Shown here: piece by piece, positions 3,359-10,965 of the stretch
How the letters are laid out: each line of letters begins with the position of its first letter
How positions within the stretch are numbered: position 1 is the first letter of the stretch
Virus record (IMG/VR): IMGVR_UViG_3300034374_004719
Location: 1 to 32,319 of that record
DNA length: 32,319 nt
Origin: a virus
Strand: one strand, 5' to 3'
The notes under the pieces: generated by a model
What the model was told of the DNA's origin: nothing
The model's database searches: none
Seen by the model: only the letters and a program-made list of their open reading frames with translations
Translations under genes and position numbers: made by a program

Positions 3359-3891
3359 TGGCGTGCGATATTTCAAAAGGTCGTTTAGTTGGCTGTAAGA
3401 CAGTAGCGGGACTAAAAAGCATAAGTTTTATAAATTATGCTGAGGGGATTTATGGAGATTTAGAGATTAATGTTACTACAGAGTTAGTAGAAGGTACGAG
3501 CTCAGGTAATATAACGATGTATAAGTACGATTTAAGAGGTGCTAATACTATGGACGAAACGGGAGAAACTAACGGAGATAATAATACGGCTTTTTGGTCG
3601 GCTTCGGGTTCTTTAACCCTTGCCTCTCAAGACGCAGTAACTCGTAAAGAGTTGAAGTTATTATCTTATGGTAGACCTATAGTAATAACTGAGGGTTGGG
3701 ACGGCGTTTTTAAGCTTTATGGAGCTCAAAACGGTTGCAATGTTTCAGTAAACACTAACTCAGGTTCGGGATTGGGAGATTTTAACGGATATACATTAAC
3801 TATATCAGCCTCAGAAAAAGAGCCCGCTTTTATAGTTGACTCAGCTATTATAGATGACGGGATTAACTTTACTACTGTAGAGGGAGTTTAA
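3358..3891 (+). CDS. Tail-tube-like structural protein, second paralogue
   Basis: This 177-residue protein is homologous over its whole length to the preceding gene: MACDISKGRLVGCKTVAGLK matches the N-terminus, YDLRGANTMDETGE and RKELKLLS match the middle, and TNSGSGLGDFNGYTLTIS matches the C-terminus. Differences concentrate in residues ~25-55 and at the extreme C-terminus (FIVDSAIIDDGINFTTVEGV), which would be surface or subunit-contact variation. Two adjacent copies suggest a tube built from two subunits, or one tube plus one decoration or terminator version. It ends just before an intrinsic terminator. Confidence 0.6.
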   Translation: MACDISKGRLVGCKTVAGLKSISFINYAEGIYGDLEINVTTELVEGTSSGNITMYKYDLRGANTMDETGETNGDNNTAFWSASGSLTLASQDAVTRKELKLLSYGRPIVITEGWDGVFKLYGAQNGCNVSVNTNSGSGLGDFNGYTLTISASEKEPAFIVDSAIIDDGINFTTVEGV

Positions 3892-3913
3892 CAGAAACTT
3901 TATTTATATATTG

Positions 3914-3942
3914 AAAGGAGGCTTATATAGTCTCCTTTTTTT
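3914..3942 (+). terminator. Intrinsic terminator closing the capsid/tube operon
   Basis: A seven-pair stem (aaaggag with ctccttt) with an 11-base loop is followed by an unbroken T tract. It lies 22 bases after the second tube-like gene and just before the conserved element A, so it insulates the next operon. Confidence 0.8.
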
Positions 3943-3955
3943 GTGCCAAAAAGAC

Positions 3956-4067
3956 GTTTTAAAACGTGACACTTTTAATATTTTTGTCACGATTCAAAAC
4001 AACGTAAATAACTGTCGTTAAGATAGTTATCTAAAAAGTGAGTTACTTAAATATATTAACTAATAAA
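3956..4067 (+). promoter_or_regulatory. Conserved 112-bp regulatory element, copy A
   Basis: This stretch aligns without gaps to 17855-17966. Common parts in order are: a GTTTTAAAAC-type palindrome, GTGAC, 15 unrelated bases, GTCACGATT, AAACAACGTAA, a variable middle, GTTA--TAAAAA, and a nearly identical 3' block (TTACTTA, one variable base, then ATATATTAACTAATAAA). GTGAC/GTCAC is an inverted repeat with the same 15-base spacer in both copies, and a TTTGAAACA-like motif recurs 36 bases apart (3957 and 3993). In copy A the first palindrome is perfect (3954-3967, ACGTTTTAAAACGT). It sits before the portal/lysis operon. A promoter with operator sites is the simplest reading; an origin or packaging signal is possible. 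Confidence 0.7.
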
Positions 4068-4072
4068 TATAT

Positions 4073-4126
4073 AAAAAGGTATCCTCAAAAAATAAAAAGC
4101 TGAATTAACGGGGGGATTCTTTTTTT
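4073..4126 (+). terminator. Terminator-like hairpin in the leader of the portal operon
   Basis: Arms 4073-4086 (aaaaaggtatcctc) and 4111-4124 (gggggattcttttt) pair with one mismatch and two G-U pairs, and the right arm runs into seven T. It lies after element A and 35 bases before the first start codon of the operon. Such placement would let it act as an attenuator; termination of transcripts from the left is the alternative. Confidence 0.5.
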
Positions 4127-4161
4127 ATGATATATTAATACTAAATTCTCGTTATATTAAT

Positions 4162-4554
4162 ATGATATATATAAACGATTCGGGACTCTCTCAGAGTATA
4201 AACTATATAGGAAGAGACGGAGACGCTTACTTATTCGAGTTTACGGATGAGCAGTCTAACGAGAGTTTTTATAAATTAGCTAACGGGTTTGTAGTAGCCT
4301 CTCAGGACTTTAATACTTTTACGGATGTTTTTGATTTCGCTATATTAGACCATGTTTATAATGTAAAGGTATATTCTGAAGGGGTTATTCCTTTTCTCGA
4401 AGTAGATAATTCTATAAATGATAAGAGGGCTTCGGATGAGTTTATATTATATAGAGGTCTATTAAGGGTGGTGTCAGCTTCAGAGAATACTTCAGGGAAC
4501 TTTAGCGATATAATAGAACATAAAAGCTCTAACGAATATATAATACTAAATTAA
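4162..4554 (+). CDS. Unknown small protein at the head of the portal operon
   Basis: This 130-residue protein belongs to no family I recognise. It is acidic and beta-rich in appearance (alternating hydrophobics in YLFEFTDEQSNESFYKLANG and YNVKVYSEGVIPFLEVDNS), has no signal peptide, membrane segment or Cys, and ends in a TAATG overlap with the portal gene. Coupling to the portal suggests a virion or head-assembly role, by context only. The upstream leader is A/T-rich with no Shine-Dalgarno, normal for Bacteroidetes. Confidence 0.6.
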   Translation: MIYINDSGLSQSINYIGRDGDAYLFEFTDEQSNESFYKLANGFVVASQDFNTFTDVFDFAILDHVYNVKVYSEGVIPFLEVDNSINDKRASDEFILYRGLLRVVSASENTSGNFSDIIEHKSSNEYIILN

Positions 4555-8818: not shown

Positions 8819-9412
8819 ATGAAAAAAATTATTACGATTCTATTATTAGCATTTTCTTTAAGTGCGTTATCTCAAACATCTATAGGAGATGTGTTAAATG
8901 ATTTACAATGGGACTTACGATTAGGTTGCTGTTCTACAGATGACGACAACCATTCTGACTTTCCTGAATGTATTTATTCTGAATATCAAAATTATTATAC
9001 TAACGGAGACGTTAATATAAATGACAATCATTTAAGACTTAGTAACACTACACTAACAGTTAACGGAGACTTTTACGCTTTAAATACTGAAAGCCAAGTG
9101 ACATTTAGCAATAATTGTACGAGCGAATTAATTATAATGGGCAATTTAATAATAACGTCAGGAGCTGTAGATACTGAAGCTGAAGGCTTAATTGTTTACG
9201 GAGATATAATTACAGATGCCTCTCTAAGCGTTTTAGAGCACTCTAAGAGCCTTAAAACTGATGAGCCTTATATTATATACGATTTATTAGGAAAAGTCGT
9301 TAAAAAGGGCTTATATAGGTCTAAGGAGGATTTATTTAGTAAAGAGCCTATGATAATATTATTTCCAAAACTTAACCTATCATTTAAAACCGTAATAGAT
9401 GCGTCTAACTGA
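8819..9412 (+). CDS. Exported beta-repeat protein with a T9SS-sorting-like C-terminus
   Basis: This 197-residue protein starts with a clear Sec signal peptide (MKKIITILLLAFSLSALS, cut before QT), the Gln-after-cleavage style of Bacteroidetes. A Cys/acidic segment follows (GCCSTDDDNHSDFPECIYS), then short strand repeats (NGDVNIND, VNGDFYAL, IMGNLII, VYGDIIT), which suggest a small beta solenoid. The C-terminus contains YIIYDLLGKVVKKG, close to the y-D-l-l-G-k-v-x-x-G core of type IX secretion sorting domains. If real, the host machinery would place this phage protein on the cell surface, for example for superinfection exclusion. It overlaps the endolysin start by 14 bases. Function is inferred. 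Confidence 0.6.
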   Translation: MKKIITILLLAFSLSALSQTSIGDVLNDLQWDLRLGCCSTDDDNHSDFPECIYSEYQNYYTNGDVNINDNHLRLSNTTLTVNGDFYALNTESQVTFSNNCTSELIIMGNLIITSGAVDTEAEGLIVYGDIITDASLSVLEHSKSLKTDEPYIIYDLLGKVVKKGLYRSKEDLFSKEPMIILFPKLNLSFKTVIDASN

Positions 9413-9782
9413 GAACTTTAACTTATGGGAGTTTGAATGTTCTTGCGGTTGCGATATGCCTGAAGATGTTTTAGATAATATAAAAAACTTAGCTAAAGAG
9501 CTTCAAAAAATAAGAGAACATATAGGCAAGTCTATAAGAGTTAACTCGGGCTATAGATGTATAGAGTATAATAGGCATATAGGTTCTAATGATAGTTCTC
9601 AGCACGTTAAAGGCAAGGCTTCAGATATAGCTGTAGAAGGACTGAGTCCTGAAGAGCTATTAGATGAGGTTCGATATTTAAAAGACTGCGAGGACTTGAA
9701 TATAAAAGGTATAGGTATATATAACACTTTTTTACATTTAGACACTCGAAAAAACCCCGCTTATTGGGACTATAGAACATAA
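9399..9782 (+). CDS. Endolysin: peptidase M15A-type (L,D- or D,D-endopeptidase)
   Basis: This 127-residue single-domain peptidase of the Peptidase_M15_3 type cleaves cell-wall peptides. The zinc site is complete: SQHVKGKASDIAV (~67-79) gives His69 and Asp76, and FLHLDTR gives His113 with Asp115. VNSGYRCIEYNRHIGSN just before is the usual family block, and the N-terminal F-x-x-x-E-F-x-C-x-C-G module is common in this group. No signal peptide is present, so export depends on the holin. The start at 9399 lies inside the end of the preceding gene. Exact bond specificity cannot be decided from sequence. Confidence 0.9.
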   Translation: MRLTENFNLWEFECSCGCDMPEDVLDNIKNLAKELQKIREHIGKSIRVNSGYRCIEYNRHIGSNDSSQHVKGKASDIAVEGLSPEELLDEVRYLKDCEDLNIKGIGIYNTFLHLDTRKNPAYWDYRT

Positions 9783-9827
9783 ATTAAAAAAAATCGTTTT
9801 AAATTAGAATATGAATAGTTAAATTAT

Positions 9828-9986
9828 ATGAAGATGTACACAGACCACATAAAAGAAGAAATACGCTTTGTTGCTTTATATAAGCCAAATGAAAAAATAA
9901 AGTGTCTTGTGAAAACGTATTACGGAAGCCACAATAAAAATAGTAATTATCACTACGCTTATAAAATAGAACATAAGCCAATATAA
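9828..9986 (+). CDS. Small unknown protein (52 aa)
   Basis: The frame from ATG 9828 gives MKMYTDHIKEEIRFVALYKP and ends HYAYKIEHKPI. It has clean beta-like alternation (CLVKTYYG, YHYAYKIE), basic charge, no membrane segment and no recognisable family. It begins 45 bases after the endolysin and lies just upstream of the attC-like folded sequence, so it may belong to the same acquired cassette. An opposite-strand frame over the same bases is much less convincing. Confidence 0.45.
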   Translation: MKMYTDHIKEEIRFVALYKPNEKIKCLVKTYYGSHNKNSNYHYAYKIEHKPI

Positions 9987-10006
9987 TTTTATTATTTATA
10001 TTCTGT

Positions 10007-10038
10007 GTTGTGCGTATGTACTTGTATTACGACACAAC
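10007..10038. repeat. Imperfect palindrome next to the attC-like site
   Basis: GTTGTGCGTA (10007-10016) pairs with TACGACACAAC (10028-10038) with one bulged base and an 11-base loop. Its right arm overlaps the left end of the next larger palindrome at AAC, so the two structures compete or are alternative folds of one site. Confidence 0.55.
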
Positions 10039-10125
10039 GTTGAGTATATGGTTTTGTAAGCCATAGCAGAAATTACAATTAAATGAATATAAACTTAGTG
10101 GGCTTATAAACTATATACATTGTTA
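10036..10125. other. attC-like long imperfect palindrome
   Basis: The left arm 10036-10062 (AACGTTGAG, then GTATATGG, then TTTTGTAAGCC) pairs with the right arm 10101-10125 (GGCTTATAAA, CTATATACA, TTGTTA), with a few unpaired extra bases and a 38-base loop. AAC at one end and GTT at the other, extrahelical bases and a cruciform-like single-strand fold are the properties of integron attC sites. The 7-base core boxes match the RYYYAAC/GTTRRRY consensus only partly. I recall similar sequences between small genes in flavobacterial chromosomes. No integrase is seen in the window. Confidence 0.45.
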
Positions 10126-10362
10126 CCCACTTTTAAAATTACGTATTATGAAAATAATTATTGAAAGAAACCAAAGTGAAAGCCAAACTCCAATAGTAAC
10201 AATAGATACTAAAACGTGCCATTACCCTTATGCTATTAGAAACGCAATAGAATTAGCATTAGAGATAGATGGATATACTAAAGAAACAATTAATGAGGTG
10301 TTTGGTATAATGCCCGATGTTGAATGTAAAGCAGAAAGTGAGTAATTTTTATTGTGGGTAAC
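10122..10362. repeat. 20-bp inverted repeats flanking a one-gene cassette
   Basis: GTTACCCAC followed by ttttaaaatta (10122-10141) is the inverse of taatttttattgtgggtaac (10343-10362), with 17 of 20 positions complementary. The arms bracket the 65-residue gene exactly: the right arm contains its stop codon. This could be a cassette boundary, or a hairpin joining the two ends of its mRNA. Confidence 0.6.
10148..10345 (+). CDS. Small unknown protein in a cassette (65 aa)
   Basis: The product begins MKIIIERNQSESQTPIVTID and ends GIMPDVECKAESE. One beta strand pair and one helix (YAIRNAIELALEIDGYTKETINEVF) are predicted by eye. There is no signal peptide, membrane segment or known motif. Codon choice is more host-like than in neighbouring structural genes (gaa, aaa, cca rather than gag, tct, aga). 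Inverted repeats bound the gene and an attC-like sequence precedes it, so it was probably acquired as a unit. Confidence 0.55.
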   Translation: MKIIIERNQSESQTPIVTIDTKTCHYPYAIRNAIELALEIDGYTKETINEVFGIMPDVECKAESE

Positions 10363-10365
10363 TGT

Positions 10366-10965
10366 ATGATATATTTAAAATGGTTTTTAGTTATGTTAGT
10401 TAACCTATTCGGGTTTTTAACAGCTCCTTTCGTGTTTCCTTTTGTTTATCTGTTAAGGGAAGTAGATTTATTTAGAAACTGCCTTCTTTGGATATACTAC
10501 GATGACGAGGACGGTTTCGGATATGGCGTAGATTGGTGGATGAGAGGTAGAAGTAGAGGTTTTTGGACTGCTTTTAAATGGACGGCTATAAGAAACCCCG
10601 CTTGGAATTTACATACATTAAGCATGTTAAAAGGTTCTGACATGGATTATGTATTCTTAAAGCCAAAAGGCATACTTCAGAGAGAGGGTAAAATACTAAA
10701 ACCAAATCTATATTATATAGGAGGGCTCAAGTATGAAGACGAATACGGCTCTTATTTAGATAATAAAGGCTCTATATTATCTTTAAAGTACTCTATCATA
10801 GGTTCGCAGTTTGTTAAGTTCTACAGCATAAAGACAGACAAAGAGTATTGGAGATATTCTTATGCAAATAGATTAATAGATAATATTTGGGTTGAATTAC
10901 AGATAGGATATTCGACGAGAGCTACATTTAGGTTAAAAATCAAAAAAATAAAAAGAGTAAATTAA
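10366..10965 (+). CDS. Membrane-associated protein, DUF7338-like
   Basis: I start at ATG 10366 (MIYLKWFLVMLVNLFGFLTA) rather than the in-frame GTG at 10354, which lies inside the inverted repeat; product ~199 residues. The N-terminal ~30 residues form a hydrophobic membrane segment. A Trp/Tyr-rich central region follows (LLWIYYDDEDGFGYGVDWWM, then FWTAFKWTAIRNPAWNLH), with a basic C-terminus (FRLKIKKIKRVN). This Trp/Asp pattern is that of a phage family I know as DUF7338, often near lysis genes. The biochemical role is unknown. Confidence 0.6.
   Translation: MIYLKWFLVMLVNLFGFLTAPFVFPFVYLLREVDLFRNCLLWIYYDDEDGFGYGVDWWMRGRSRGFWTAFKWTAIRNPAWNLHTLSMLKGSDMDYVFLKPKGILQREGKILKPNLYYIGGLKYEDEYGSYLDNKGSILSLKYSIIGSQFVKFYSIKTDKEYWRYSYANRLIDNIWVELQIGYSTRATFRLKIKKIKRVN

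Follow-up and report, generated by a model that had tools for sequence, protein, structure and literature searches.

An integron cassette begins with sequence complementary to the R box that precedes its own attC site; in the inverted integrons of Treponema, the integrase reads towards the cassettes. The recombinase XerA resolves chromosome dimers at dif-like sites. In its available text, the IntegronFinder 2.0 survey finds few integrons in Bacteroidetes, formerly In0 elements only, followed by a single complete integron (Salinibacter), apart from those of Chlorobi and Ignavibacteriae (PMC9024848); the insertion that is specific to IntI integrases is held to be essential for integron function in the accessible part of another study (PMC8138268). 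Qi et al. (2023; PMC9892861, available text) have published phage CALINs, including one in Polaribacter phage P12002L, and phage attC sites active with IntI1, so the remark in the first-pass annotation of our locus that cassettes of this sort are little described in phages was fair only with that reservation.

The locus lies in an IMG/VR phage record of 32,319 bases (the window, that is, the whole stretch of DNA that we analysed). Positions 9804-10362 very probably consist of two tandem integron-type cassettes that lie between a phage endolysin gene and the next gene and whose site family is coupled, in Bacteroidota genomes, to a tyrosine recombinase; the action of the enzyme on them is our inference (Table 1). 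The first-pass annotation had proposed a mobile cassette in the lysis region; the insertion is indeed absent from three relatives (L186-L188), but it comprises two cassettes, not one, and the palindrome that had been noted as a separate element is the end pair of cassette 1.

Table 1. Features of the cassette insertion and its neighbours in the window.
Feature	Position	Strand	Evidence
Left neighbour, phage peptidase M15 endolysin gene	9399..9782	+	Pfam PF08291, E 6.7e-21; PHROG endolysin, E 6.8e-37
Cassette 1, 235 bp	9804..10038	+	235/235 identical to L284/L282 amid unrelated flanks
Divergent hairpin, candidate site of cassette 1, with ORF in loop	9806..10004	+	Arms 9806-9829 / 9981-10004, 24 nt, 88% complementary
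52-aa ORF in the loop of cassette 1	9828..9986	+	ORF list; no Pfam or PHROG match
End pair of cassette 1, GTTGTGCGTA (R') and TACGACACAAC (R''), ~10 nt apart	10008..10038	+	Sequence; palindrome fold; identical in L284
Cassette 2, 324 bp, hairpin site and 65-aa gene	10039..10362	+	316/325 aligned columns identical to L221
attC-like site of cassette 2	10036..10124	+	R1 match 10032-10128, 66.3 bits, E 2.9e-10; covariation over 53 sites
Parts of the attC-like site	AAC 10036-10038; spacer GTTGA 10039-10043; arms in 10044-10062 and 10101-10118; spacer ATT 10119-10121; GTT 10122-10124		
R' end, where the gene-bearing part of cassette 2 begins (GTTACCCAC...)	10122..10142	+	21 nt, 86% complementary to 10342-10362
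65-aa cargo gene, phage gene family	10148..10345	+	16 viral loci; no Pfam match
R'' end (...GTGGGTAAC, then the edge), right boundary of the insertion; no hairpin follows	10342..10362	+	
Right neighbour, phage gene, weak DUF7338 similarity	10369..10965	+	PF24027, E 0.0011, below the Pfam cut-off

The site of cassette 2 belongs to a family. A first scan of viral contigs with a 14-base pattern returned 119 stretches that were mostly chance by eye, several of which had the full layout ACAACGTTGAGTATA - arm - loop - arm - TATACATTGTT; two gapped patterns gave nothing (viral contigs with a gap of 30-60, genomes with a gap of 40-70), and a later one identified 44 genome loci and 25 loci of viral contigs. 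By name, the genome records belong to Bacteroidota or related groups (Ignavibacteria, Chlorobiota, Neomarinimicrobiota, Cloacimonadota), and a single one bears the label Archaeon BMS3Abin17. The layout of the family is AAC-GTTGA-GTATA...TATAC-ATT-GTT. When 53 sites (the window's included) are aligned with the stem assigned by hand, 91.9% of the cells are paired in a 22-pair structure; 189 cells are double-changed vs 69 in shuffles, changes occur on both sides in 13 of the 22 pairs, and none of 500 shuffles reaches the covariation score. Two pairs are kept as G-U, in 47/53 and 44/53 sites. The family therefore has what characterizes an attC-type hairpin, that is, paired arms, unpaired spacers and a variable loop.

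We built a model (R1) from the 53 sites; it gives 193 matches at E≤1 in 684 kb from 81 sources. The cassette-rule and polarity counts below use 177 of these; the 16 excluded were, as far as can be reconstructed, opposite-strand copies of palindromes, matches in a near-identical contig (L185), one cut-off match and the weakest matches. AAC and GTT are present in 172 of the 177 sites, with a purine after GTT in 171 of the 172; the R box in its strict form is rare (GTTRRRY in 23/172 sites, RYYYAAC in 23/172). The first-pass annotation expected similar hairpins in genomes of the host group, and they occur there: besides the 44 loci, 68 of 247 Bacteroidota genomes carry R1-family sites at E≤1e-6. 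Sites are also present in 38 of 39 virus records, with up to 13 per record. In several phage sites (L170, L044, L072 and L166), a short ORF begins in the loop, runs through the 3' arm and GTT and yields, by eye, a repeated LYTLL or VYTLL peptide.

The stem in the window has ~17-19 pairs with one extra base (10044-10118), and AAC and GTT lie outside it. Folded as DNA, this hairpin is not beyond chance (z -1.13; 24/200 shuffles equally good); folded as RNA, it exceeds chance only weakly (z -2.30; 3/200). Fold energy was therefore dropped as proof, and the case for the hairpin rests on comparison, that is, on the R1 score and the covariation; on these grounds the hairpin of the first-pass annotation is real, and its attC-like nature is borne out, the site travelling together with the 65-aa gene. 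The palindrome at 10007-10038 is present as described (DNA z -2.05; 6/200 shuffles equally good), and the inverted repeats around the 65-residue gene are slightly longer than had been claimed (10122-10142 / 10342-10362). An Rfam search of 9600-10600 matched no family.

The sites obey a cassette rule. In 59 of 92 adjacent site pairs (those usable among 104), the sequence after GTT is complementary to the sequence before the next AAC, with four bases after GTT scored; shuffles give a mean of 3.8 and a maximum of 11 in 1000 runs. At GTT and the seven bases that follow it, 66-87% of the pairs are complementary at each position; position 11 is a conserved mismatch (3%), after which three further positions match again. 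The two halves of one site are far less complementary over the same positions (25-68%). The complementary cassette ends of integrons are thus found here, although 33 of the 92 pairs fall short of the full rule; in some of these an intervening site was perhaps missed. The rule explains both repeats in the window: the inverted repeats that enclose the 65-aa gene are both ends of a single cassette, and a different cassette has the palindrome as its end pair.

The comparison of presence and absence that the first-pass annotation had proposed identifies an empty gap in the relatives. The distance from the endolysin stop codon to the next start is 13 bp in L186, L187 and L188 vs 586 in the window, and the relatives of the right neighbour that start there are 57-62% identical to it. 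Of the two edges, the left is the less secure, because the best alignment to L186 joins 9803 to 10363, whereas L187 and L188 favour a left edge at 9787. Blastn against named phages matched only Nonlabens phages P12024S and P12024L, in the lysis region; the 3.9 kb fetched from P12024S contain no R1 match.

Each window cassette also occurs separately in other contigs. The identity of cassette 1 with L284 ends at AAC; in the L284/L282 copies the edges fall immediately after ACAAC and CACAAC, and the window copy has apparently lost 2-3 bases at its start. The inverted repeat that surrounds the 52-aa ORF, overlooked by the first-pass annotation, makes up cassette 1 together with the palindrome. The R1 model does not detect it (best local scores 6.9 and 6.7 bits), and its position suggests that it is the recombination site of cassette 1. 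The 52-aa ORF is seen in five viral loci, 100% identical throughout, two of which end at a contig edge. For cassette 2, the blastn match 10036-10362 in L221 and L222 ends at AAC on both sides (97.3% over 328 bp, AAC included); the flanks of the window and L221 differ (8/40 and 10/40 matching), and L221 and L222 have a common left flank (60/60) and different right flanks (11/60). We had considered a right-hand cassette that has lost its hairpin; this was dropped, as L169/L173 and L221/L222 place the hairpin before the gene in phage cassettes. An R' partner was found for 13 of 24 viral last sites (control mean 2.0, maximum 7). Judged as a CALIN (at least two attC sites, integrase absent), the window has one R1 match, one divergent site that the model does not detect, and no matching recombinase.

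Whole units are gained and lost between phage contigs. L169 and L173 have 352 bp in common at 100%, from AAC to AAC, with other DNA on both sides; L181 and L183 have identical flanks (100% over 609 and 1153 nt), and L181 contains one extra cassette of ~950 bp where the join in L183 is clean at AAC. With the window vs L221 and L284, these are the cases of single-cassette gain or loss, all of them in phage contigs. Of four records checked against PHROG, G300 (terminase, portal, tape measure), G302 (portal) and G298 (virion proteins) are phage-like, and G287 is doubtful. Such exchanges could in principle need no site-specific enzyme: the hairpins would be shared repeats at which phages recombine by homology, and the cassettes would be mosaic modules. 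Phages are mosaic, sites recur along their contigs (up to the 13 in one record), and few virus records carry the recombinase described below (3/39). We nevertheless regard this explanation as unlikely, because there is scant homology outside the 3-nt AAC at which the breakpoints lie (L181 and L183 differ after the two AACs), the left edge in L169 vs L173 joins unrelated DNA, and neither the complementary unit ends nor the arrays that adjoin a recombinase are accounted for.

The site-specific reading, that is, cassettes moved by a dedicated enzyme, draws on the genomes. All 40 genomes searched have sites at E≤1e-3 (1 to 58 each), and beside the arrays we find a tyrosine recombinase, ~360-390 aa long (34-65% identity among the seeds). 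In 8/8 loci, 33-156 bp separate the end of the nearest cassette from the stop codon of the recombinase, and 9-10 of 10 bases are complementary at that end; all eight thus have an attI-like junction, and the half-site TATA is present in 5/8 vs 64/642 control AACs. The proteins contain Pfam domains PF13495 and PF00589; the catalytic R, K, H, R, H, Y are invariant in 14/14 sequences. The XerA model NF040815 is the top-scoring named family for three of the four recombinases scanned, and all four score below the integron-integrase cut-off. Where VchIntIA has 65 residues the recombinase has 22 (~43 fewer), so an IntI-family integrase with the specific insertion is not what adjoins these arrays. In a predicted structure of moderate quality (mean pLDDT 76, pTM 0.50), Foldseek identifies the integron integrase 2a3v as the best match (E 2e-16), with XerA next. 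The recombinase is related to both XerA and IntI and is without the IntI-specific insertion.

Site and enzyme are also coupled across genomes. Among the 247 Bacteroidota genomes, 40 have enzyme and sites, 33 enzyme only, 28 sites only and 146 neither (p 1.8e-9; enzyme at E≤1e-90, sites at E≤1e-6), counts that are not independent because related genomes share ancestry; at these thresholds, 28 of 68 site-bearing genomes are without the recombinase and 33 of 73 recombinase genomes without sites. Among the matches listed on large chromosome contigs, a listed site lies no more than 20 kb away for 11 of 17 recombinases (mean at random 0.6, maximum 5). On one such contig (G238:C1:2692469-2731162), at least seven listed sites on one strand end near a long-form recombinase. 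A short form of ~280 aa, without the N-terminal part, seems by eye to be in the classical divergent layout (e.g., G222, G078, G094, G106, G236). The N-terminal part itself has no Pfam match in the four proteins scanned; residues 1-75 (L150) are predicted to form a small beta-beta-alpha-beta-beta-alpha-beta domain, which may bind arm sites.

Alternatively, these could be conventional attC sites of integrons on which canonical IntI enzymes act. The cassette logic is the same, and according to the available text of PMC9892861, IntI1 recombined attC2 of Polaribacter phage P12002L in E. coli; that phage carries R1-family sites, with none of which the tested attC is equated. We consider this very unlikely: an integron integrase scores above the cut-off (NCBIfam TIGR02249) in only 3 of 40 genomes, all of which have sites, the 2.5-3.9 kb fetched at the four best IntI-like loci contain none, strict GTTRRRY is rare, and the recombinase that does adjoin the arrays is short of the IntI residues noted above. 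Canonical IntI is thus unsupported as the enzyme of these arrays.

With the adjacent recombinase as the likely enzyme, the arrays resemble chromosomal integrons (IntI-attI-attC) and CALINs in their AAC/GTT-ended hairpin site with a variable loop, their one-gene units with complementary ends, and their position beside a tyrosine recombinase with an attI-like junction. Unlike chromosomal integrons, they have longer end complementarity (about 14 nt) and seldom the strict GTTRRRY, and their recombinase, below the integron-integrase cut-off, does not have the IntI-specific insertion; its long form possesses an additional N-terminal part, and the gene for it is oriented the same way as the cassettes. 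As in the inverted integrons of Treponema, whose enzyme is a different one, the 3' end of the long-form integrase gene adjoins the array. The closest sequences among solved structures are XerA-type recombinases (PDB 5hxy, 4a8e), from which the long form differs by ~95 more N-terminal residues.

Only three of the 39 virus records carry a related recombinase, two of which score well (231 and 170 bits); because of this the enzyme that acts on phages is inferred, although the records may be fragments, and most phages probably rely on a host enzyme in trans. One phage record (locus L269, G298:C1:39060-39836) contains nine sites and a 279-aa short-form recombinase (231 bits) near several of them, a possible phage-borne cassette enzyme.

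Gene polarity separates the two settings. In genome cassettes the gene is on the strand opposite to the site as written (31/34) and ends at the hairpin; in viral cassettes it is on the strand of the site (22/23) and its start is mostly 18-46 nt after GTT. The count is limited to cassettes with at least 8/10 end matches and an ORF of at least 40 aa; the samples were 37 genome cassettes (31 with the gene on the minus strand, 3 with it on the plus strand and 3 lacking an ORF of that length) and 33 viral ones (22 plus, 1 minus and 10 lacking such an ORF), the latter including near-duplicates (L181/L183, L172/L182). The recombination unit is the same in phages and genomes, and the gene is turned round inside it. 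In the cultured Polaribacter phage P12002L, three R1 matches (38876-39713) and the surrounding annotated genes all have minus-strand orientation. Qi et al. (2023; PMC9892861) likewise describe cassettes in phages, this one included; unlike our study, theirs uses existing attC models and IntI1, and its available text does not describe the R1 family, the recombinase, the boundaries or the opposite polarity. One of the three matches (L219:39512-39713, minus strand) contains an annotated small gene (39530-39664) in its loop, like the 52-aa ORF of the window. That the hairpins are mainly RNA elements (leader, terminator) before small phage genes, not recombination sites, is hardly credible: the two G-U pairs are strongly kept and the phage hairpin sits just before the start codon, but in genomes the same hairpin follows a gene on the opposite strand, no Rfam family matches, and the AAC boundaries and exact gain and loss are left unaccounted for.

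The first-pass annotation derived the 65-aa gene from a flavobacterial chromosome; this is unsupported, and the cargo resembles a phage gene rather than one of the host, because its relatives occupy 16 viral loci vs one weak match (E 9e-4) in the 247 Bacteroidota genomes. Relatives with the gene and without the hairpin, which that annotation named as evidence against a cassette, exist (L226, L230-L234); they show that the gene family lives also outside cassettes, and the cassette status of the window copy is not thereby excluded. In one Labilibaculum array, two cassettes (L143:1483-2286 and 3550-4329) encode similar proteins that are, by eye, penicillin-binding or class D beta-lactamase-like.

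Each mobile unit extends from just past one AAC to the next. It contains a hairpin site and one short gene, and the part that follows the hairpin has complementary ends. For the mechanism we propose that the recombinase would bind the folded single-stranded hairpin and cut it at AAC/GTT beside the 5-nt spacer; most phages would depend on the host recombinase in trans; and the cassettes of the window would have been inserted when a TTAAC-like sequence in the gap between the two genes served as the recombination point.

In the literature examined (PMC9892861, PMC9024848, PMC8618304, PMC8138268 and PMC9668308, in their available text, with preprints and most subscription journals outside its scope), we found no description of the R1 site family, its recombinase or the opposite polarity. 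Bacteroidota probably have a widespread second type of integron, with a XerA-like integrase that is without the IntI-specific insertion, and their phages their own pool of cassettes, that is, very short phage genes, turned to the opposite strand relative to the hairpin and traded between unrelated phages by host enzymes, occasionally by one that a phage itself carries. Bacteroidota have been treated as nearly integron-free, yet more than a quarter of the sampled genomes (68/247) carry R1-family sites. If the recombinase is confirmed, the IntI-specific insertion would not be the sole solution to cutting folded sites; for phage biology, the cassettes would offer a concrete route by which single small genes pass between unrelated phages with base precision.
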